A stretch of 28,548 bases of DNA from a virus. Both the position numbers and the translations under genes were made by a program. Positions within the stretch are counted from its first letter, which is position 1; every line of letters starts with the position of its first letter. This document shows positions 5,199-15,011 of this stretch, in pieces. The notes under the pieces were generated by a model. That model was given only the letters and a program-made list of their open reading frames with translations. It was not told the DNA's origin and did not search any database. Location: positions 1 through 28,548 of the IMG/VR virus record IMGVR_UViG_3300038696_000293; one strand, written 5' to 3'.

Positions 5199-5684
5199 TT
5201 AAACCTCCTGCTCGGCTTTGGCCTTGGCGAAATCCGCCAGGGTCATACCAGTTGCGCGCGCCACTTCGACTTCCTCGGCAGTCAGGGCACCGGTTTTCTT
5301 GCCGGGGTCCTTTTTGTCCAACGCCGACGCGCCACCGACGATGACGGGCATCTGCTCGACCGTGGCGGTGAAGGCTTCGACCCCGACGGCTTTGGCCATG
5401 GCGAGGTATCCGTCCTTGGCGGCCGGGGCGATCTTGCCCGCCTCGACCCCGGCATCGACCGCATCAGCGATCACCTTTTCGGCGCGCGCCGTTTCGGCCG
5501 CTTCGAGAGCGGTGATTTTGGCATTGGCCGTATCGAGCTGGGCTTTCGCTACCCAGACTTCCGGGTCCGGCGCCCTGGCGCTGGCGGTCTGGACCTCCAT
5601 CTTGAGGTCCTTGATCTTGGCCACAACGGTGGCGGCAGTCGCGTCTGAGCTTAACCCAAGCGCGTCGAGGACAGCTTTGTCCAT
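5199..5684 (-). CDS. Nested scaffold protein Z, same frame as protease I
   Basis: An internal in-frame ATG at 5684 (MDKAVLDALGLSSD) is preceded by AGGAG at about 5694 to 5698, spacing about 9 bases. It would give a 161-residue product identical to the C-terminal half of protease I. In Mu, scaffold Z is made from a nested start inside gene I, and the same arrangement is common in tailed phages. The segment is a predicted coiled coil, rich in Ala, Glu and Lys, with no cysteine. The sequence shows the start and its site; the nested product is inference by analogy. Confidence 0.8.
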   Translation of the reverse strand: MDKAVLDALGLSSDATAATVVAKIKDLKMEVQTASARAPDPEVWVAKAQLDTANAKITALEAAETARAEKVIADAVDAGVEAGKIAPAAKDGYLAMAKAVGVEAFTATVEQMPVIVGGASALDKKDPGKKTGALTAEEVEVARATGMTLADFAKAKAEQEV

Positions 5685-6164
5685 AGTGTCGTTCTCCTGT
5701 GTATCGCCCATCTTCGCGAGTTCGGGCATCTTGAAACCGGGGGTGTTGGTCAGACCGACCGAGAGCAGCTGGGTGATTTCACCGGTGTCATCTTCGACGC
5801 TGTACCCGACCGACAAGAACTTGTAGGCCTTGGACGTCACCCAGGCGGCGCCCTGCTCGTTCCACTCGACGCGACCCCAAAGGGCACCGTCGCGCAGCTC
5901 TATTTCCCGCACCCATCCGTATGCCGGGGCATCCAGCCCCTGAGGCGCGCGGACATGCGTGGCATGTTCGACATCGATCGGCAGCGGATGGCCGCGCTGC
6001 TTGAACGCCGCGATAACCTGCTCCGGGCGCGACAGCCGGTGCATGCGTCCGTCGGTGGCGGCAAGCATCGGCCCTCTGGGCGTCAGCTGAACCCATTCGG
6101 GCGCAGCTTTGCCACTGGTGGCCAATTCTACCGGGGTAAGATGAAGGGTGCAGGCGTTGTTCAT
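5199..6164 (-). CDS. Prohead protease I (Mu gpI family) with a scaffold domain
   Basis: A 321-residue protein from the ATG at 6164 (MNNACTLHLTPVE). Residues 1 to about 150 are the protease: W-V-Q-L-T-P-R-G, then P-L-P-I-D-V-E-H-A-T, then G-W-V-R-E-I-E-L-R-D-G-A-L-W-G-R-V-E-W, and K-F-L-S-V-G-Y-S-V near residue 125. These are typical of Mu gene I. The C-terminal half (residues 160 to 321) is Ala/Glu/Lys-rich coiled coil and corresponds to scaffold. The open frame extends upstream to 6278, but that part reads like non-protein and contains the late-promoter palindrome, so 6164 is preferred. No good ribosome-binding site precedes it. It precedes T, as in Mu. Confidence 0.92.
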   Translation of the reverse strand: MNNACTLHLTPVELATSGKAAPEWVQLTPRGPMLAATDGRMHRLSRPEQVIAAFKQRGHPLPIDVEHATHVRAPQGLDAPAYGWVREIELRDGALWGRVEWNEQGAAWVTSKAYKFLSVGYSVEDDTGEITQLLSVGLTNTPGFKMPELAKMGDTQENDTMDKAVLDALGLSSDATAATVVAKIKDLKMEVQTASARAPDPEVWVAKAQLDTANAKITALEAAETARAEKVIADAVDAGVEAGKIAPAAKDGYLAMAKAVGVEAFTATVEQMPVIVGGASALDKKDPGKKTGALTAEEVEVARATGMTLADFAKAKAEQEV

Positions 6165-6492
6165 AGCCCGGACCATGCCGGGTTGCGCCACGCGATGCGC
6201 CTTGGAACGCATTCCATGGCACCGGGTCTGTTTCGAAGCGTTTGGAACAGAGGCGCTGAGCGGCCCGGGTAGCGCCATCCCGCCTCTAGACTAGTCCGAC
6301 CCGTGAATATCCGGCAAGGGTATTAAAAAGGTATTTAACGGCGGGCTGTGGGCGCAATTCATCTGAACCCACGCAGGACACCTGCGCGGCCCTTGAATTT
6401 GCAGCTTCCAGCGGGTATTCATGTGCACACACCCGAGCAATTTCGGTCAGCCGGTCCATGTGATCGCGGAGGAGTACCGGCCTCCCGGGTGT
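6165..6492 (-). promoter_or_regulatory. Gap upstream of gene I with late-promoter-like palindrome
   Basis: This 328-base stretch between gp30 and protease I is one of few gaps in the late region. It carries TGGAACGCATTCCA at 6203-6216, about 40 bases before the ATG of gene I. The same palindrome, apart from one base, occurs upstream of the lysin gene. Mu has an activator-dependent promoter here (PI), so a late promoter is likely. A small stem (CGCAGG, 3-base loop, CCTGCG) lies at about 6371-6385. I see no rho-independent terminator for the upstream genes. Confidence 0.6.
6203..6216 (-). promoter_or_regulatory. Candidate Mor/C-type activator site, PI copy
   Basis: TGGAACGCATTCCA is a palindrome with one mismatch at the centre, flanked by CC-T and T-GG, which extends the symmetry to 20 bases. 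In the transcribed direction both copies share GCGTTCCAAGGCG. It lies 38 bases before the gene I start. A good -10 is not obvious, as expected for an activator-dependent promoter. Confidence 0.5.
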
Positions 6493-7701
6493 TTACTCTC
6501 TTATCACAGTCGTCGTCGAACGCCGGATCGTGCTTTTCCATTTGCGCAGCTCAGTGCGGTGCATGGTGCTGACCCAAATCTCGTTGTGCCCGGGCAGCAC
6601 CTTGAGCACGAAACGCCAGGGCTTCTCCGAGCGCTCGAAGACGATCAGACTTTCCGCGCCATTAACGATTTCCCGTGCGATCCGCCCCTCGTGCAATGCG
6701 TCCGAGAGAACCGCGAGCGTCTCGACCGATACCTCGCGTGACTTTGTCTGAAACTTTTGCCCGTAGGCGCTGGTCATCTGCACCACACGCGTGCGCGTGC
6801 CGATGATGTCTGCGACGTCGTCCGGCAAGACCCCGATCGGCACGGCACCTGGCGCCCGACCTTCCAGAACACGCCGCGCGCGCCAGCTGGTGGCGATGTC
6901 GCGGGCCGCGACGCGGGCGGCAGGCTCGGGCAGACTCTCGAGCTTGTCGTTGAGCATGCGCTCCATCGCGCGGCGGCGCAGGACGCCGGGATTGCGCTCC
7001 CACCCTGGATCGATCCCGACCGGCACCGGCTTGACCTCGCCGGTCCTCCGGTTCGTCCATTCGCGCGTTTCGACCGGCGGGCTGTCGTCGATACCCAACT
7101 CCTCGGCCGCGCGCCGTGTGATCTGTTTCACCCAGCACTTGCAGCCCCAACCGTTCGGCGGATACCAGGTGCTCCAGAACGGATCGTCCACCGGCAGGAC
7201 CAGAAACTCCTTGGACGCGTGATGCGGCCTGTGACGTTCGCTCGGACCCAACCGGTACTGGAGATACGGCATGGCGGTCTTCGTGCGCTGGATGCGGTCC
7301 CATTGACCGGCAGCGCGCGCCGAGCGCAGGTTGGCGTCATAGATCGTGCGCAGCCTGCGCGGGGTGCCAAGAATGCCAGGCCGCGCGTCGCCGCCTTTAC
7401 CCGGGTCCGCAACCTTGCCCACCCCCCACCAGCCACGCGCCTGAAGGCGCGGCTTGAGACGCTTCTGGAACTCCGCAAAGGGCAGACCCTCGTCCAGGGC
7501 CGCTTGCACCTCTTCACGGATGTCGGTCAGCACATCGATGCTGGTGGCCTTGGCCACGCTGAAGGCGACGGCGTGCTCTTCCGGCTCTACATCCAGCCAG
7601 CTGAACGCGGGCTGCCAGCCTTTATTGCGCAAGAACCGCGATGCCTCCGGCGGTGGCCCGGGCTTGAAGCTGTAGTCGGGCCGGTCGTCGTCATCAGCCA
7701 T
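6493..7701 (-). CDS. Head morphogenesis protein, Mu gpF/gp30 family, with a C-terminal nuclease-like extension
   Basis: A 402-residue protein starting at ATG 7701 with GAGG before it. Residues 30 to 170 are the minor head domain, with P-F-A-E-F-Q-K-R-L and R-L-R-T-I-Y-D-A-N-L-R-S-A-R-A-A-G-Q-W near residue 120. It ends at the Cys motif P-P-N-G-W-G-C-K-C-W-V, typical of the SPP1 gp7/MuF group. After that about 215 residues follow. The last about 105 residues (T-R-V-V-Q-M-T-S-A-Y, S-V-E-T-L-A-V-L-S-D, then R-F-V-L-K-V-L and the ending T-x-H-R-T-E) resemble the PBECR barnase/RelE-like domains known to be fused to MuF proteins. That part is my inference and low confidence. It overlaps the portal gene by several bases. 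Confidence 0.88.
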   Translation of the reverse strand: MADDDDRPDYSFKPGPPPEASRFLRNKGWQPAFSWLDVEPEEHAVAFSVAKATSIDVLTDIREEVQAALDEGLPFAEFQKRLKPRLQARGWWGVGKVADPGKGGDARPGILGTPRRLRTIYDANLRSARAAGQWDRIQRTKTAMPYLQYRLGPSERHRPHHASKEFLVLPVDDPFWSTWYPPNGWGCKCWVKQITRRAAEELGIDDSPPVETREWTNRRTGEVKPVPVGIDPGWERNPGVLRRRAMERMLNDKLESLPEPAARVAARDIATSWRARRVLEGRAPGAVPIGVLPDDVADIIGTRTRVVQMTSAYGQKFQTKSREVSVETLAVLSDALHEGRIAREIVNGAESLIVFERSEKPWRFVLKVLPGHNEIWVSTMHRTELRKWKSTIRRSTTTVIRE

Positions 7702-9238
7702 CCTCAACATCCCCGGCGGCGCGGGCCGTGAACATGGCCTGTACCAGCTGGTCGATCATCCGCGACGACGGCATACCCTCGATCGCCTTGAGCGATGCCA
7801 GCGCCGTCTCGTAGCTGTCAGCCTCCGCGATGGCCTGCGTGAACGGGGCCATCAGATCGTCCATCACCGGTTCCCAGTCCGACAACATCTCTTGTCGGAT
7901 ATCCTCGATCGTGTCGATCTCGCCACCGTCGCGCGCAAGGTGGACATGGCGGGCGGTCTGGGGCGGCGGGCTTGGCGCGGGCGCCCCGCCGAACACCTCA
8001 TCGTCATCCGTCGGATCTGCCATCCGCACGATGGCCCGCGCGTCAGCGGCCTTGAACGACACGCCAGCTCCGGCCAGAGCCACGATCCCATCGACCTTGG
8101 TCTTGATGTCCTCCGGTTCGTCCACGGTGATCATCACCTTGGGGAAACCTTTGACCGGACCAAAGTTCAGCATCACGCAGGGCACCACCAGGTCGCGGTT
8201 GATCGTACCGCTGATACCCCGTGCATCAGCAGCCGCCACGTCGTGACGAACCTCGTTGTGGACATTGGCCTGCGCCTGGCTGGACCCGTCGTCCGTGGTC
8301 ATCGTCTGGCCGAGGACCGCCTTGCTGATCTGCTCGTCCACATAGCGCGCCAGGTTTTCAAAGATGGGCATGCTGCCACTGCCGGAGGTGTTCTGTACGA
8401 ATTCGATATCCATGTGTTTGGGGATGACGGCCGCTGCGTCCGTCCCGATATTTGCCACGGCGCGAAACAGGACCGCGACGTCCTTTGCGGTCGCGGCCTT
8501 GTCGTATCGGCCCAGGCGCAGAGGCAGGCCGTAGGTTTCGACGAAGGCCATCCAATCCTTGACCGTGTAGGCCTTGCACATCCAGCTGAAGGCAACAACA
8601 CGGGCAATTCCACCCCGAAACGGCTGTCCCGTCTTCAGCTTGGCGGTGTGCACAATGAAATGAAACGGCTTGAGAGGAACGCCATCGACCGGGTCCGACT
8701 CGTCGCGCAGCCTGATCTTTCGACCTGTTTCCTTGTCGAACTGGAAAAACCGTTGGGTGCGATCCTTGAACGCCCTGGGGAACCAGGCGTTTTCGTTGGT
8801 CTGCCAGTCGGTTTCCACGACGGCAAAACCCTTTCCCACGGCATCCATCAGATCCTCGACCAGGTCGGCGAACATGTCATGGCCGGTCACGTGCTGCTCG
8901 ACCCACTTCGCGATCTCGATGTCCTTCGCCTCTTCCGAGAACGGCTTCACCGTCGCCCTGATACCCGACACGGCGCGTTTTCGCTGGCCAAGGACGGAGG
9001 CATAGTGAGGATCGCGTTCCTCCATCTCTTCGGCCAATGTCATGAACGCGTCGATATTGCCCTGATCGCAATCGCGCAGGATCCCCGCCAGGGCTTGCGG
9101 CGTCAGCCCGCTGGCCACCGACTCCACCCAAGCTTGCCGCACGCCCGTCATCCCGCCCTCGGCCTGCACCTCGACCAGGTCCGCTTTACGAACCAATTGG
9201 CCCCATGCGTCGCGCAATACGTCCCTGATGCTCACCAC
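7694..9238 (-). CDS. Portal protein (Mu gp29, DUF935)
   Basis: A 514-residue protein, the usual length for gp29. Marks include I-L-R-D-C-D-Q-G-N-I-D-A-F-M-T-L-A-E-E-M-E-E-R-D-P-H-Y (about residue 50 to 76), then V-L-G-Q-R-K-R-A-V-S-G, and D-M-F-A-D-L-V-E-D-L-M-D-A. The G-L-P-L-R-L-G-R-Y-D and Q-T-M-T-T-D-D-G-S-S-Q-A-Q-A segments are highly characteristic. It forms the dodecameric portal ring. Start is GTG at 9238 or, more likely, the adjacent GTG at 9235, which overlaps the terminase stop (GTGA). Confidence 0.95.
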   Translation of the reverse strand: MVSIRDVLRDAWGQLVRKADLVEVQAEGGMTGVRQAWVESVASGLTPQALAGILRDCDQGNIDAFMTLAEEMEERDPHYASVLGQRKRAVSGIRATVKPFSEEAKDIEIAKWVEQHVTGHDMFADLVEDLMDAVGKGFAVVETDWQTNENAWFPRAFKDRTQRFFQFDKETGRKIRLRDESDPVDGVPLKPFHFIVHTAKLKTGQPFRGGIARVVAFSWMCKAYTVKDWMAFVETYGLPLRLGRYDKAATAKDVAVLFRAVANIGTDAAAVIPKHMDIEFVQNTSGSGSMPIFENLARYVDEQISKAVLGQTMTTDDGSSQAQANVHNEVRHDVAAADARGISGTINRDLVVPCVMLNFGPVKGFPKVMITVDEPEDIKTKVDGIVALAGAGVSFKAADARAIVRMADPTDDDEVFGGAPAPSPPPQTARHVHLARDGGEIDTIEDIRQEMLSDWEPVMDDLMAPFTQAIAEADSYETALASLKAIEGMPSSRMIDQLVQAMFTARAAGDVEDG

Positions 9239-10797
9239 AGCCCCTCTCGCGCGCCAAAGCCCGCCGTTGTCGATACGCGCCGTCCTTCGTCCGTTTTGCG
9301 CCCGCCGCGCGGCACGCGGGCGTAGGTGTGAACCTGGTATTCCGTCTTAAGGGCCGCGAGCAGCAGCATGAGCGCCACAAAGGCGTCGCCATGCCGCCCC
9401 TTGTTGCGGGCGTCGGGAATGGTCGGGATGCCGCGCACCAGCTTGACCACGCGCATGTCGTCGCGCACATCGACATCATTCGCGAGGCTTATGGTCTGGT
9501 CCTCGAAATGCTTTTTCACCCGTGGGCCGTTCTCAAGGTAATAGCCCTGGCTCAGTTTGACCGCCTCGATGCGCTCAAAACCGAATGCCTCCTGGCATCG
9601 CTCTGCCAGTCCCAGGCCGTTGCCGGTCGCGTCGAACTTGGCCCCGAGGAACCGCGACAACCGACTGATGATGAAGCTGATCACCTGGAACTGCTGTTCG
9701 ATCGGCATGTTCTTCAGTTCGACCATCAGCGGCACCACCACCGACAGGTCGCGTTGCTCCTGCCCGATCGCCAGAATTGTCAGGTCCGAGCTGCGCCCGA
9801 AATCTTCCCCAAAGGCGGTCAGCCGCTCATCGTCCAGCCGGTCCAGGTGCGGCGCGACTTCACTGTCCAGAAAGGCCTGCACATAGGCCGTTCGCTCATC
9901 AGCGGGGCGCAACTCGAACCCCTGCGGAGCGGACAGCCGCGCGACGTGATGCGCATCCGTCATGCAGGCCTCGACAGCGGCTGCCGAGATGTAGGCGCCG
10001 CTACCTTTTTTCGGAATGCAGTACAGCTCTTCCTCGGCGTCTTCGCCGTAGAAGGCCATTGTGTCCGCGATTTTCGCAGCCTTTGCAGCGCTCGTTTGGG
10101 GCCAGCCCAGGACGAGCCCCATATGTTCATACCAGCCGTCATTGATGGCGTCGTCGAACGTCACTCTCAAGACGAAGCCTTTGCGTTTGCCCGAGCGAAT
10201 ATCGCCGATCAGCCGGTTGAACGAATTGTCAGCCCCGTCATGTGTGCTGATCACCAGAACTTTGCCATCCAACATGAGCAGCGCCATCGCCGCCTTGAGC
10301 ATCTCGTCCAGCTCGTCGTGGAATGCCGCCTCGTCGAAGATCACAAAACCCTGACGACCGCGCAACGAGCGCGGCTTGCTGGTCAGCGCAACGATATCGA
10401 ACCCGCTGGCGAATCGGATTTTAAAAGCATTTATGGATTTTTCGGCCCCGTCCTCGGTTTGCTCCTTGAACAGGAATTCCTCGACCGCACCGGCGGCAGG
10501 CATGAACGCTTTGGCCCACATGGCGCAGACGTCGATGAACTCCTGCGCCATGTCGAGATTGAACCCGATATAGAGCACGTCCATACCGCCCGCTGACTTC
10601 TGGGCACCCGCCGTCAACACCGCGTCCGATCCGATGCCCCACGTCATGCCGATCCGGCGCGATTTCTCACAGACCACAAACTGGTGGGCGGCCGTCGCCT
10701 CTAACAACCGTGCCTGGTAGGGTATCAGGACCGATGGCAGATCACCTTGCTCGGCAAGCCGCTCGGGCAATTGGTGTTTCGAGGCGGGCGCGTTCAC
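9232..10797 (-). CDS. Terminase large subunit (Mu gp28)
   Basis: A 521-residue terminase. The ATPase part has a Walker A-like C-E-K-S-R-R-I-G-M-T-W-G (residues 43 to 54), in which R-R-I-G replaces the usual glycine-rich loop as in other gp28 proteins, and Walker B F-V-I-F-D-E-A (residues 151 to 157). The nuclease part begins with F-G-E-D-F-G-R-S-S-D-L-T (about 329), where the aspartate is the probable first metal ligand. It packages DNA by headful cleavage. GTG start overlaps the gp27 stop (GTGA). Confidence 0.95.
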   Translation of the reverse strand: MNAPASKHQLPERLAEQGDLPSVLIPYQARLLEATAAHQFVVCEKSRRIGMTWGIGSDAVLTAGAQKSAGGMDVLYIGFNLDMAQEFIDVCAMWAKAFMPAAGAVEEFLFKEQTEDGAEKSINAFKIRFASGFDIVALTSKPRSLRGRQGFVIFDEAAFHDELDEMLKAAMALLMLDGKVLVISTHDGADNSFNRLIGDIRSGKRKGFVLRVTFDDAINDGWYEHMGLVLGWPQTSAAKAAKIADTMAFYGEDAEEELYCIPKKGSGAYISAAAVEACMTDAHHVARLSAPQGFELRPADERTAYVQAFLDSEVAPHLDRLDDERLTAFGEDFGRSSDLTILAIGQEQRDLSVVVPLMVELKNMPIEQQFQVISFIISRLSRFLGAKFDATGNGLGLAERCQEAFGFERIEAVKLSQGYYLENGPRVKKHFEDQTISLANDVDVRDDMRVVKLVRGIPTIPDARNKGRHGDAFVALMLLLAALKTEYQVHTYARVPRGGRKTDEGRRVSTTAGFGAREGLW

Positions 10798-11375
10798 GAT
10801 GGCACTCCCAGGATACTGGCGCGAATCGCCTGTACGGTGTCGTCGGTGAAGCCGTAGGTCTTGGCATTCTTCGTCAGGTCGTCGGCGACGGCGGCCTTGG
10901 CCTCCTGGGCGGCGCGCTCGGCGATCCGGCGCTCCTGATCGGCCGACATCTTTTCGCGCATACCCGACGAGCTCATCACATCTTTCAGCATCTTGCCCAG
11001 AAAGTGCAGCTCCTGCGGATTGATCGCGTCGCCTTCCTTCAGCATCTGCGACTTCATGACCTTGAAGGCCAGCGTCGTGATCATCTGGAACAGCACGTTG
11101 TGGCGTTTGGCCTCCTCTTCGAGGCCGTTGCCTTCCATCCAGCTCACGGCCCAGGCACTCGCCTCTTCCTGCGCCTGGGCCATCTTTTCATACTCCTGCC
11201 CGAAGGAATGCACCGCCGACTTGCTCAGCCGGACCTCGAAGCCTTCCTCGTCGAGCTTTGCGTTCAGCGCATCCGTGATGCCTTCATAGTCCGCAAAGCG
11301 TTGTGCCTTCAGCAGGTCCTGTAGCCAGAGCCGCAGATCGTTCGACAATAAATTGATCTTGCGCTTGGGCGGCAT
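10794..11375 (-). CDS. Mu gp27-like protein (DUF3486), probable small terminase subunit
   Basis: A 193-residue protein from ATG 11375 (MPPKRKINLL). The open frame begins further upstream at 11462, but that extension is non-conserved and overlaps the preceding gene; ATG 11375 lies two bases after that gene's stop. DUF3486 marks are S-K-I/L-N-L-L-x-x-D-L-R-L-W-L-Q, the H/D-A-L-N-A-K-L segment, S-K-S-A-V-H-S-F-G-Q-E-Y and a long helical C-terminus. The family is the likely small terminase subunit by position before gp28. Translationally coupled to gp28. Confidence 0.9.
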   Translation of the reverse strand: MPPKRKINLLSNDLRLWLQDLLKAQRFADYEGITDALNAKLDEEGFEVRLSKSAVHSFGQEYEKMAQAQEEASAWAVSWMEGNGLEEEAKRHNVLFQMITTLAFKVMKSQMLKEGDAINPQELHFLGKMLKDVMSSSGMREKMSADQERRIAERAAQEAKAAVADDLTKNAKTYGFTDDTVQAIRASILGVPS

Positions 11376-11376
11376 G

Positions 11377-11670
11377 TCAACGCCGGGCCGACGGGCGCTT
11401 GACGCCGGGGTGCACAACACGGCCCATTGCCACGTCCGCGCCCCGTGAGGTGGCAGTGGCAATCACGACATGCCCATGGTCGGTCATTTCGACCAGTTCG
11501 GCTTCACCAAGCCAGGCAAGCGCTGCGCGCATTTGATCTTCCGACGTGGCGATCCCGACACCGCGAACCACGTCGATCAGGATCGAGGCGTTCGAGGTGT
11601 AGTCCGACGAGCGTTCGAGGTGGCGCAGAATGGCCAGGCGGCGATGTTCGGTTTCCGGGTTCGCGGGCAT
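11377..11670 (-). CDS. Small winged-helix-like protein, paralogue of its upstream neighbour
   Basis: A 97-residue protein of the Mu gp26-like position. It shows R-R-L-A-I-L-R-H-L, N-A-S-I-L-I-D-V-V-R-G-V-G-I, S-E-D-Q-M-R-A-A-L-A-W-L-x-E-A-E-L-V and ends PGVKRPSARR. The alternation looks like a winged helix-turn-helix. Its neighbour at 11694 follows the same pattern, including the VA-x-G and PGV-x-RP tail. The role is not known; Mu-like phages often encode one or two such proteins before gp27. An unusual start context: ATG after GCGCGGGC... with no obvious ribosome-binding site was found. Confidence 0.75.
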   Translation of the reverse strand: MPANPETEHRRLAILRHLERSSDYTSNASILIDVVRGVGIATSEDQMRAALAWLGEAELVEMTDHGHVVIATATSRGADVAMGRVVHPGVKRPSARR

Positions 11671-11693
11671 TTGAAGCCTCCTTCAATCAGGCT

Positions 11694-12005
11694 TTAAGGG
11701 TCTGGCCGCATGACACCCGGTACCGACCGGCTGCCCTCTGCGACCTCTTTTCCGTTTTGGGTGACACGGGCGATAATTTCGTCGGTATGTCTGCGCACAG
11801 TGATCAGCTCCTGCTCCTGGAGCCATTGAACGGCCGCGACGATCTGATCCATCGTGGACGGCACGCCCAGGCGCTCGCAATTCAGCCGCAGGAGTGACGC
11901 CGCCGCCTCGTAACGCGGCATGCAGGAAAGATACTGCAATATCTCAAGGCGACGCTTTTCCGTTTCGATCCGCAGCACCGCGTTGGCCCATTCCTGGAGC
12001 ATCAT
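11694..12005 (-). CDS. Small winged-helix-like protein of the gp26-type position
   Basis: A 103-residue protein with an N-terminal R-R-L-E-I-L-Q-Y-L segment, L-L-R-L-N-C-E-R-L-G-V-P-S-T-M-D-Q-I-V-A-A-V-Q-W-L-Q-E-Q-E-L-I and the tail GVMRPDP. It follows DUF2730 with overlap (ATGATG junction). It aligns by eye with the next gene along almost its full length. I infer a recent or ancient tandem duplication. In Mu-like phages this place, after gp25 and before gp27, is taken by small DNA-binding-like proteins, possibly terminase partners. Confidence 0.78.
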   Translation of the reverse strand: MMLQEWANAVLRIETEKRRLEILQYLSCMPRYEAAASLLRLNCERLGVPSTMDQIVAAVQWLQEQELITVRRHTDEIIARVTQNGKEVAEGSRSVPGVMRPDP

Positions 12006-12385
12006 TCCTTCCTCTCGGCGATACCGACAACGCCGCGATAAAGACTGTCCACCATTCGGCTTGTCGCATTCCCTGTCGCTTTGACTTCAGCCAGAGAAAT
12101 GGCGAGCCGTGAGACATCCTCCTTGGTGGCCAGTGAACCGATCTGACCTTCGAGCTTTGACAGATGCGTGTCGATCCTACGCACATCGTCCTTCATTGAG
12201 GTTTGCTCTTGTTCGACTTCACCCAGCCGACGCTTGATGTCGTCATGCCCCGAAGTCAGTCCCGACAGATTGTATTTCACCCGGCTCGACACGCGCCCCC
12301 AAAACCAGCGCCCGACCAGTCCAAGCAGCGCAATGGCCGCGAGCACGAGGCCAAGAAGCTCATTTCCGCCGTTAACCCAATCCAT
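12002..12385 (-). CDS. DUF2730 protein (Mu gp25-like), one transmembrane helix and coiled coil
   Basis: A 127-residue protein from ATG 12385 (MDWVNGGNELL), with GAGG about 10 bases upstream. Residues 9 to 29 are a membrane helix (L-L-G-L-V-L-A-A-I-A-L-L-G-L-V-G). Residues 48 to 110 are a long heptad-like helix with R-R-L-G-E-V-E-Q-E-Q, D-V-R-R-I-D-T-H-L-S-K-L-E and a repeat of the L-x-x-L-x-x-E pattern. DUF2730 proteins occupy this place in Mu-like phages, next to the lysis genes, so a spanin-like or membrane role is possible but not shown. Confidence 0.82.
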   Translation of the reverse strand: MDWVNGGNELLGLVLAAIALLGLVGRWFWGRVSSRVKYNLSGLTSGHDDIKRRLGEVEQEQTSMKDDVRRIDTHLSKLEGQIGSLATKEDVSRLAISLAEVKATGNATSRMVDSLYRGVVGIAERKE

Positions 12386-12575
12386 CACCAAAGACCTCGC
12401 GACAAACAAATGTAGTCAGTATTGAGAAATCTGCGCCGAAGGCCGAACGCGCGACGGGCCAAAGAGCCCCCGGGATTGCCGTCCTGCCCACGCAGCTTGC
12501 ACCCCGAAGGATCATCGCCGTCACGAGGACACCAGACACAAGGCAATATGCCCGGCGCGCGTGACGGCAGACCAT
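12372..12575 (-). CDS. Possible small membrane/lysis accessory protein
   Basis: A 67-codon frame filling the gap between the holin and DUF2730. Residues 9 to 30 are moderately hydrophobic (A-Y-C-L-V-S-G-V-L-V-T-A-M-I-L) and end near a cysteine (G-A-S-C). This could be a degenerate signal or lipobox as in an Rz1-like spanin, but the match is poor. There is no good ribosome-binding site at 12575 and the 3' end overlaps the start of DUF2730 by 14 bases. The region may instead be simply leader DNA. Confidence 0.3.
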   Translation of the reverse strand: MVCRHARRAYCLVSGVLVTAMILRGASCVGRTAIPGALWPVARSAFGADFSILTTFVCREVFGDGLG

Positions 12576-12592
12576 TCAGGCGGCATGAAGTC

Positions 12593-12811
12593 TCAGCCGT
12601 TCAGGGTGATGCGATTTCTGGCGCGAATACGCCCGTAGAGCGCCACGGCCCCGGACACCAGAGTGACCGCAGAGATGACCAGATCGCGGGCCTGCGAGAC
12701 GTCATCCGGCGAAACAGTGACGCCCACCAGACCGGCCAGGCCGACGAGAACGCCACCGGCGCCGCCGAGAACGCCAAGAGATTTGAGTGGGGATTTATAG
12801 CCGTTGAGCAT
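12593..12811 (-). CDS. Holin-like small membrane protein
   Basis: A 72-residue protein starting at ATG 12811, two bases after the amidase stop. Two hydrophobic stretches, residues 12 to 32 (L-G-V-L-G-G-A-G-G-V-L-V-G-L-A-G-L-V-G) and 44 to 60 (V-I-S-A-V-T-L-V-S-G-A-V-A-L-Y-G), are joined by an acidic turn (S-P-D-D-V-S-Q-A-R-D). The C-terminus is basic (R-I-R-A-R-N-R-I). This topology, size and the position next to the lysin fit a two-helix holin that opens the inner membrane for the amidase. Confidence 0.85.
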   Translation of the reverse strand: MLNGYKSPLKSLGVLGGAGGVLVGLAGLVGVTVSPDDVSQARDLVISAVTLVSGAVALYGRIRARNRITLNG

Positions 12812-12812
12812 G

Positions 12813-13685
12813 TCAGGACCTTTCAGTTGGTTTTGATGTTTTTTTCGTGTAGCGGCGCACGACCCAGCCCTCCTGGCCGTCGTAGAGCACACAGAGCCAT
12901 TCGGTTCCGCTGAACACCCCGTCACGCAGGACCGGCACTTCCGCACCATTTGGGATCGCCGTCAGGACGTTCGGATTGAAGCTTGGCCAGCGCCGCATGT
13001 TGAGGCCGCTGCCCCGGGTTTCGATCTGCACCCACGACCGGATCGCGCCGGTGTCCGCATCGTCCTTCGGCTCAAGTTCCGCCCGGTCCTCGCGACCCAG
13101 AACCCTGGCGCGCAGGCTCTCGAGCGGGAACAGCGGATTGGCGTCGGTCTTGCGGCCAGGCGAGATGTACCAGTGCGCCTGGATATCCTTGAGCGTGTCG
13201 ATACCCCGAAACAGGGCTTGGCAAAGCTGGAGCGTCGTTTCGATCTGTTCGGGCGTGTAATCCATCCAGTACCCAGCGCCGTGTTCAGGCGTCGTGATCC
13301 GATGAATGCCGTATTCTTCCACCCCGAATGATTGTTTGAACCAGGTTCTGGCGCGACCCGGCCCGTCGTAGGTCATCTTGCCCGGGTTCACGATCTCGAT
13401 CCCGATCGAGAAGCCGTTGCAGTGTCGCCGACCGTGGTACTGCGAGGTCCCCGCGTGATTGGCCCGGCGGTTGGTCGGCACCTGCTGGATCAATGACCCA
13501 TCGCGCTCGACAACAAAATGGACAGAAACCCTGGCGGGATTGTCACGCAGATACCGCGCCGCCGAGCCCTCGTCCAGCCTGCTGGCAGTGTCGTGCACGA
13601 CAACCAGCGTCGGCGTGATGGCCCCGCCGATGGCCTTCGCAGGCTGATAAGGGGCCGCGTCGATCTTGTGGGATTTGAGGCGCAT
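12813..13685 (-). CDS. Endolysin: N-acetylmuramoyl-L-alanine amidase with SH3-like domain
   Basis: A 290-residue lysin. Residues 20 to 185 are an Amidase_2 domain with the expected zinc ligand pattern: V-V-V-H-D-T-A (H31), A-N-H-A-G-T-S (H77) and A-H-W-Y-I-S-P-G-R-K-T-D (H171, with K179 and D181). It cleaves the bond between muramic acid and the stem peptide. Residues 220 to 282 are an SH3b-like cell-wall binding domain (S-G-L-N-M-R-R-W-P-S ... G-W-V-V-R-R-Y). No signal peptide is seen, so release needs the holin. It is the first gene after the Mor-like activator and is preceded by the palindrome at 13750. Confidence 0.93.
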   Translation of the reverse strand: MRLKSHKIDAAPYQPAKAIGGAITPTLVVVHDTASRLDEGSAARYLRDNPARVSVHFVVERDGSLIQQVPTNRRANHAGTSQYHGRRHCNGFSIGIEIVNPGKMTYDGPGRARTWFKQSFGVEEYGIHRITTPEHGAGYWMDYTPEQIETTLQLCQALFRGIDTLKDIQAHWYISPGRKTDANPLFPLESLRARVLGREDRAELEPKDDADTGAIRSWVQIETRGSGLNMRRWPSFNPNVLTAIPNGAEVPVLRDGVFSGTEWLCVLYDGQEGWVVRRYTKKTSKPTERS

Positions 13686-13693
13686 GAGGATGT

Positions 13694-13716
13694 CCCGGAA
13701 AACATGAAGTTCCGGG
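13694..13716 (-). promoter_or_regulatory. Inverted repeat in the lysin leader
   Basis: CCCGGAA (13694-13700) and TTCCGGG (13710-13716) form a 7-bp perfect stem with a 9-base loop. In the minus-strand mRNA the downstream arm ends 8 bases before the lysin ATG and includes the only G-rich stretch that could bind the ribosome (GGGA). The hairpin could therefore limit lysin translation. Confidence 0.4.
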
Positions 13717-13749
13717 CCAAACTGTCATGTGGAGCGGATCGCATCGCCT

Positions 13750-13763
13750 TGGAACGCGTTCCA
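13750..13763 (-). promoter_or_regulatory. Candidate Mor/C-type activator site, Plys copy
   Basis: TGGAACGCGTTCCA is a perfect 14-bp palindrome, with CC and GG flanks that extend the symmetry to 20 bases. It lies 64 bases before the lysin ATG, while the copy at 6203 lies 38 bases before gene I. It is the only perfect copy I found in the window. Confidence 0.5.
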
Positions 13764-13828: not shown

Positions 13829-14218
13829 TCAAAAGAGAAATTGCGACTGGTCCGGCGGACCCTGATCGCGCAGCTCGGCGCGGTACTGCGACGCTGTGCG
13901 CACAGCGATGTCACACGCCAGCGCCACTTCGCGCAGCGACTTGCCATCCTCCAGCATCGCAATCGCCCTCCTTTTCTTCTGAAGGCGGCTCGCGTCGCGA
14001 CCGCGCATATGCCCGCACGGCAGGTCGATATTGCCGGGTCCGATCTCGTCAATCAACTTTTCGGTGGCCTGCTCACCGATGATCCCGGCCAGCAGAGTCC
14101 CCCGCGCGGTCGCGGGAATTTTTACCACAGTACCGCCCCGGGCCTTGAGCAGCTTTACCGTCAGTTCCAGCCCGATGGTTTGCTCTATCTCGCCTGCGAC
14201 GCCGGGTAACTGGGTCAT
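13829..14218 (-). CDS. Mor/C-like transcription activator of middle/late genes
   Basis: A 129-residue protein, the same size as Mu Mor. The first 90 residues (I-G-x-E-x-T-V-K-L-L-K-A-R-G-G-T-V-V-K-I-P, then I-G-E-Q-A-T-E-K-L-I-D-E-I-G) match the Mor dimerisation half in style, with the conserved G-G-T-x-x-x-I-P strand. Residues 77 to 118 form the helix-turn-helix (R-A-I-A-M-L-E-D-G-K-S-L-R-E-V-A-L-A-C-D-I-A-V-R-T-A-S). It starts with ATGA overlap on the methyltransferase gene, so it is made from the early-middle transcript. Mu has two such proteins (Mor, C). Only one is seen here, and it lies where C lies in Mu, just before lysin. Confidence 0.82.
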   Translation of the reverse strand: MTQLPGVAGEIEQTIGLELTVKLLKARGGTVVKIPATARGTLLAGIIGEQATEKLIDEIGPGNIDLPCGHMRGRDASRLQKKRRAIAMLEDGKSLREVALACDIAVRTASQYRAELRDQGPPDQSQFLF

Positions 14219-14778
14219 CCGAACGCCTCCGTTTGGTTGCCCCAGACGTCGCGGCCTTCCCAGCTCTCGCGGGCAAAAAGCTCACACCCCCAAACGTCCG
14301 GGAGCAGCTTGTCGATCATCTCCCGCGCCTCGGGCGGCTTGCGGGAATGCTCGCGGCGCTCCGACTCGATCAGGTTGCGCACGGAGCGCGACCGGTACTT
14401 GGGTGCGCCGATGGTGCCGATCAGGTAGGGTTCTGTGGTGGATCGCAGGATGTATCCGGTGCCGAAACACCGCTTCCCGCTGGCGGTTGTCTTGGTCCAG
14501 GACCCGCCGGTTTTATAAGTAAAGCCCCAGGAGGCCATGAGCGACTGCGCCTGAAAGAGGTGCGGCCAGGTTGCCCACATGAAGATCATGCAATCCGGGG
14601 CGGCAAGCTGGCCGACGGGCAGCGCCTGCAACTCCTGCGCAGTCATCGTGTCATAGTGCCTGCCGGGCGACTTGGTCTTCCCGGCGTCCGAACGCATCAC
14701 GTGGTCCCACGGCGGGTCGCAAAGGATCGCGCCGTATTTGAACGGCACCAGATCACCAAAAGGCCAAGGCTCCGTCAC
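14215..14778 (-). CDS. MT-A70 family adenine-N6 DNA methyltransferase
   Basis: A 187-residue protein with GTG start at 14778, overlapping the upstream stop (GTGA); the frame extends to 14856 without support. The catalytic motif D-P-P-W at residues 21 to 24 (I-L-C-D-P-P-W-D-H) and the paired I-F-M-W-A-T-W and G-x-G-Y-I-L-R-S-x-T-E-P-Y-L motifs identify the MT-A70-like class. It would methylate adenine in DNA, probably of phage and host, and protect against restriction. It takes the same defensive role as Mom in Mu, but Mom makes a different modification. No partner restriction gene is seen. Confidence 0.92.
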   Translation of the reverse strand: MTEPWPFGDLVPFKYGAILCDPPWDHVMRSDAGKTKSPGRHYDTMTAQELQALPVGQLAAPDCMIFMWATWPHLFQAQSLMASWGFTYKTGGSWTKTTASGKRCFGTGYILRSTTEPYLIGTIGAPKYRSRSVRNLIESERREHSRKPPEAREMIDKLLPDVWGCELFARESWEGRDVWGNQTEAFG

Positions 14779-15011
14779 GGTTTGGTCCTCGCGCCCTTGC
14801 TCCAATGCACGCCGGTCACCGTGACAACGACACCGTTCCGAATTCGATAGCGCCAACCAGATGACACAACGGCCGTGCAGCCCGGGTGCTCGGACGCAAA
14901 GGCGACGCGGTCCGCCATCTCCGCGCGGACAGCGTCTACATCCAGCCCGCGCACGCGTTCCAGATACCTCAGGACAGCATGGTCCGTGATGCCGATCCGC
15001 CGCTTGCTCAT
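14775..15011 (-). CDS. Small conserved phage protein of unknown function (DHAVLRYLERV motif)
   Basis: A 78-residue protein starting at ATG 15011, overlapping GemA (ATGA). It begins with basic residues then G-I-T-D-H-A-V-L-R-Y-L-E-R-V-R-G-L-D-V-D-A-V-R and a short beta-rich C-terminus with W-R-Y-R-I-R-N-G-V-V-V-T-V. The D-H-A-V-x-R-Y-x-E-R motif is seen in many small phage proteins of this size, but I cannot give a function. The fold may resemble RelE-like or double-psi proteins; this is a guess. It precedes the methyltransferase. Confidence 0.7.
   Translation of the reverse strand: MSKRRIGITDHAVLRYLERVRGLDVDAVRAEMADRVAFASEHPGCTAVVSSGWRYRIRNGVVVTVTGVHWSKGARTKP

Follow-up and report, generated by a model that had tools for sequence, protein, structure and literature searches.

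The window, i.e., the whole stretch of DNA that was analysed, corresponds to an entire IMG/VR record (28,548 bases) and covers most of a Mu-like prophage with flanking genes. The late genes of this prophage lie on the minus strand, and the window ends beyond gene J. Four minus-strand genes are central here: a Mor-like late activator of 129 amino acids (13829-14218), identified by its match to the phrog_836 profile, an N-acetylmuramoyl-L-alanine amidase acting as lysin (12813-13685; PF01510, E 4e-23), the F gene (6493-7710) and gene I, encoding the Mu-like head maturation protease (5199-6164; PF10123, E 1e-48; phrog_328). Further relevant genes in the window encode the terminase large subunit, the portal and capsid protein T. 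The activator gene shares the 4 bases at its start with a gene for an MT-A70 type DNA methyltransferase (14215-14856).

Two 14-bp palindromes occupy gaps between these genes. Site A, the predicted activator site of the lysis promoter, is TGGAACGCGTTCCA at 13750-13763 (minus strand, read 13763-13750); it is located between the Mor-like gene and the amidase lysin, the first gene after it. With its flanks included, site A reads CGCCCTGGAACG joined to CGTTCCAAGGCG, a dyad of 24 bp in which one pair is mismatched. Site B, the predicted activator site of the gene I promoter, is TGGAATGCGTTCCA at 6203-6216 (minus strand, read 6216-6203), between F and protease I, and has its dyad in common with site A. 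An earlier note on this DNA had placed both 14-mers here, and exact matching bears this out: nothing else in the window matches them, whether exactly or with up to two mismatches. The strand-specific common block it had described was likewise recovered, since the 13-base GCGTTCCAAGGCG occurs exactly twice on the late strand of the window, in the same orientation. The gene coordinates also agree with its reading that the copies precede the first lysis gene and gene I, with the Mor-like gene upstream of the first copy. Scored for a shared dyad, the two gaps reach 31; when both were dinucleotide-shuffled 20 times, the highest value was 24, and none of 990 random same-phage segments scored 31 or more.

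Site words in related phages

Relatives were found via the terminase. When close relatives were sought with only the Mor-like protein, almost nothing was retrieved. The sample consisted of 80 genome loci and 80 viral loci among the matches listed; the Mor-like gene is present in 145 of these loci and both gaps in 114. The highest-scoring shared dyad exceeds every one of 20 shuffles in 73 of the 114 loci. In 99 dereplicated relatives, the gap that separates the Mor-like gene from the lysis genes was set against the one before gene I. A shared-dyad score of 28 is reached by 53 of these 99 phages; among pairs made across phages the share is 5.3%, and among random segments taken from the same phage 0.5%. 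When dyad and -10 element are counted together, 60 of the 99 pass a threshold that 0.3% of random segments attain. With the shared-dyad method, approximately 30-40% of the relatives give no clear dyad pair, and the C sites of Mu itself are not recovered as a shared dyad, so that it cannot be taken as a general-purpose detector.

Out of 18 positions, 16.1 are identical between the two sites of a given phage and 6.7 between sites of different phages. Each phage thus tends to carry its own dyad word, the same at both places. This is well visible among the close relatives, in which the place of the palindrome is kept by an equivalent dyad with a different word; the loss from these places that the earlier note had named as refuting its reading is not seen. 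In the lysis gap, L024 and L025, both from Loktanella strains, carry GGTGAACGCGTTCACC, which recurs in their gene I gap (with one base changed in L025), L027 and L053 have CCTAGAATGCGTGCAGG and CCCTGAACGCGTGCAAGG in the two gaps, and L026 has CCCTGAACGCATTCGAGGG in the lysis gap, its contig stopping before gene I. A literal word search is misleading in this situation because the exact word of the window is private to its phage: when all viral contigs were scanned for it, 18 matched, none of which encodes the window proteins, and these were set aside as unrelated. The same comparison bears on the reading that the palindrome has no function and is present twice by chance or through a recent duplication. 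Just two copies in one window could suit such an origin, but the position is kept while the sequence changes in dozens of phages, and the comparative data refute this reading, to which we give practically no probability.

Promoter geometry and the start of gene I

For the promoter geometry, 51 dereplicated pairs were aligned on the dyad centre. They had been chosen by their shared dyad with nothing downstream used, the window and one weaker close relative being retained by hand. An A at +34 from the dyad centre is found in 41 of the 51 lysis sites and 37 of the 51 I sites, and a T at +38 in 39 and 37, respectively. Both occur together as A-N3-T in 35 lysis and 32 I sites, while any other tested offset gives at most 8. 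From this enrichment we read A+34 and T+38 as the -11 A and the -7 T of a -10 hexamer, which would put the dyad centre at about -44.5. In the window, the predicted -10 elements are CAGTTT for the lysis promoter (13719-13724, minus strand, offsets +33 to +38) and CATGGT for the gene I promoter (6172-6177, minus strand). The earlier note was mistaken in finding no obvious conventional -10, as both hexamers lie at a fixed spacing from the dyads, even though they agree with TATAAT at few positions. No sigma-70 -35/-10 pair was found in the window between 5900 and 14400. The features of a Mor/C-type promoter are present in the form of a dyad of about 5-bp repeats, with a centre deduced from the -10 to be at about -44.5 and so near the -43.5 of such promoters, and a -10 without a -35.

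Dyads between operons may also act as intrinsic terminators, the likeness of the two copies then being incidental. A T run indeed follows the dyad in 8 of 47 lysis sites and 7 of 47 I sites, mainly in Rhodobacteraceae phages. However, both window sites lack a T run and neither is reported by a terminator scan, for which reason the terminator reading was rejected for them. Moreover, terminators require neither the same word twice nor a -10 at a fixed distance, and most phages show both. We consider it very improbable that termination explains the dyads. In L044, L078, L080, L082 and L118 (both gaps) and in L084 (lysis gap), a terminator-like T run after the dyad coexists with the same -10 spacing. 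The dyad may have a dual use as site and terminator in these mainly Rhodobacteraceae phages.

Returning to the dyads as promoter elements, their spacing to the start codon of gene I is conserved as well. The gene I ATG lies at +43 to +47 from the dyad centre in 39 of the 51 phages and at +45 or +46 in 32. That of the window (6164) is found at +46 and coincides with the predicted transcription start. A Shine-Dalgarno match of at least 4 nt precedes 13% of the gene I starts versus 92% of the starts of capsid gene T in the same phages, and none is present before gene I of the window. With its ATG on the predicted transcription start and without a Shine-Dalgarno sequence, the gene I mRNA is probably leaderless. 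In the lysis gap, starts show only a weak concentration, 8 of 47 being at +45 or +46. The lysis-operon transcript of the window is predicted from the position of the -10 to start at 13711-13712 (minus strand), approximately 27 nt upstream of the lysin ATG (13685). The unequal site-to-ATG distances pointed out in the earlier note (64 versus 38 bases) can thus be accounted for by a lysin leader of about 27 nt and a gene I that probably has none, since it begins at its predicted transcription start.

The Mor-like activator and its recognition helix

By profile comparison, the window activator is a phrog_836 protein and a distant relative of Mor and C. It matches phrog_836 over residues 3-126 of 129 (E 1.2e-18), a family that Mu Mor and Mu C match as well. 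With 12.3 bits against a gathering cut-off of 24.9, it is not a member of Pfam Mor (PF08765); hhalign aligns it to Mu Mor/C with 95% probability (E 4e-8), and the family profile matches the PDB structures of Mor (1rr7, E 2.8e-4) and, weakly, C (9l0x, E 0.0096). The protein is built from two alpha-beta (GG..IP) units followed by a helix-turn-helix (HTH) with a recognition helix at about residues 101-112. Within residues 6-72, the alpha-beta GG..(Y)IP unit that is single in Mu Mor/C is duplicated in tandem: units 1 and 2 match each other in hhalign (97%, E 2.4e-11), and each also matches Mu. An AlphaFold model (pLDDT 85, pTM 0.53) contains two helix-strand units, and Foldseek with this model retrieved HTH parts only, not Mor.

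The site words follow the recognition helix. In a set of 47 phages, the distances between sites correlate with those between recognition helices (Mantel rho 0.48) more than with those of the terminase (0.17) or I (0.21), and the correlation with the helix persists when the terminase is held constant (partial 0.46, p 0.001). V102, R103, S106 and Q107 of the window protein are among the most informative columns. Particular helices pair with particular words: ERTA with TGTCAG, TD.(T/S)VR.(W/Y)L with TTGCGGG and related words, and ARRT(V/I)QYW with TTGCGCCC. As the words track the recognition helix far better than the terminase, the site is tied to the activator, and we infer that the word of each virus is matched to its own activator.

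This covariation also bears on whether the dyads are operators at which an S24-type repressor or a host regulator silences the late genes in the lysogen. A repressor could make use of a palindrome in such a position, immediately before a -10. Yet, among the phage proteins tested, it is the Mor-like recognition helix that the word tracks best, the window has no copy near its repressor/early region, and a repressor would find no -35 to control. Altogether, we regard the operator reading as quite unlikely.

Late control and its relation to known systems

The position, symmetry and conservation of the dyads, their spacing to the -10 and to the start codon, and their covariation with the recognition helix are what the sequences display, and we propose with considerable confidence that the palindromes are the activator-binding sites of two late promoters, at which the Mor-like protein would bind as a dimer and activate sigma-70 transcription from the -10. 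The late-activator regulon put forward in the earlier note is thus supported by dyad, -10 spacing and helix covariation, and the pattern of paired sites is present in about 60% of 99 distinct prophages. In this model, the only Mor-like protein of the phage (13829-14218, minus strand), encoded by the last gene before the lysis region, would bind both sites, docking as a dimer at about -44.5 with TGGAAYGCGTTCCA as candidate target. The bound activator would substitute for the missing -35, allowing host sigma-70 RNA polymerase to use CAGTTT and CATGGT. The promoter at site A would then serve the lysis and packaging genes, and the one at site B gene I and the head and tail genes, with an mRNA that probably starts at the I start codon.

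We also consider it fairly likely that this organization extends to a large, mainly alphaproteobacterial group of transposable phages, characterized by a single Mor-like activator in which the alpha-beta unit is duplicated. In this group, helix and word would have diverged jointly, giving dozens of pairs that are private to their phages and possibly insulated from one another, gene I transcription would start on the start codon to give a leaderless mRNA, and the dyad would double as terminator in some lineages. Since each phage brings both an activator and two or more copies of a private site, the group would offer a natural specificity code. Its dozens of activator/word pairs can be tested in one assay and could be used as orthogonal switches. 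The analysis predicts leaderless translation of a head protease and provides a binding-site prediction for the widespread phrog_836 family. No published binding site for this family and no report of these late-gene sites were found in the literature searched, a coverage that leaves out most subscription papers, and late control in these phages has so far been read only by analogy with Mu.

Two described phages are of interest here. Phage vB_PeaS-P1 (L057, KT381865.1) has been described as lacking Mor (PMC5488378) and carries a gene of the phrog_836 activator family (ALF02122.1, 11678-12121, E 1e-19). Its two gaps have GAAACTGCTTCCCCGGG / GAAACTGCATCCCCGGG in common, with a dyad score near background. 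The phrog_836 late transcriptional activators, to which the window protein belongs, include orf19 of Pseudomonas phage D3112. In D3112, GTTGAACCCCTTCC occurs at 5698 and 14742, after the phrog_836 gene and before I, each copy being followed by a -10-like CA(GG/CC)AT and an ATG at about +44, again with a dyad score near background. The shared-dyad matches in D3112 and B3 are leads only.

In Mu, the C activator acts at Plys and PI (PMC4461284), and Mor binds inverted repeats centred at -43.5, in place of a -35 (PMC4390567). Similar to Mu Plys/PI (PMC4461284), the window has an activator site before a weak -10 upstream of the same two genes and a phage-encoded activator related to Mor/C. In contrast, there is one activator gene here instead of Mor plus C, the words are phage-specific, and gene I is probably leaderless, whereas Mu I has an annotated RBS. 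The late regulon also differs in extent. Mu has sites at lys, I, P and mom, while a scan of ten whole prophages among the relatives gave the lys and I sites only in eight and a third site in two, at 30448 in L183 (G010) and at 31944 in L154 (G012), both ahead of later genes and the only extra sites in this set. The third site of L154 precedes an ORF with its ATG at +44, itself before a large tail-region ORF; judged by position and sequence inspection, the ORFs after this site are probably tail genes. In comparison with the Mor site of Mu Pm (PMC4390567), the window sites likewise consist of 5-bp inverted repeats with a dyad centre at about -44 and a recognizable -10 without -35, yet, their spacer is 4 bases rather than the 6 of the Mu Mor site, and they would drive the lysis and head genes, whereas Pm drives the middle operon with C.
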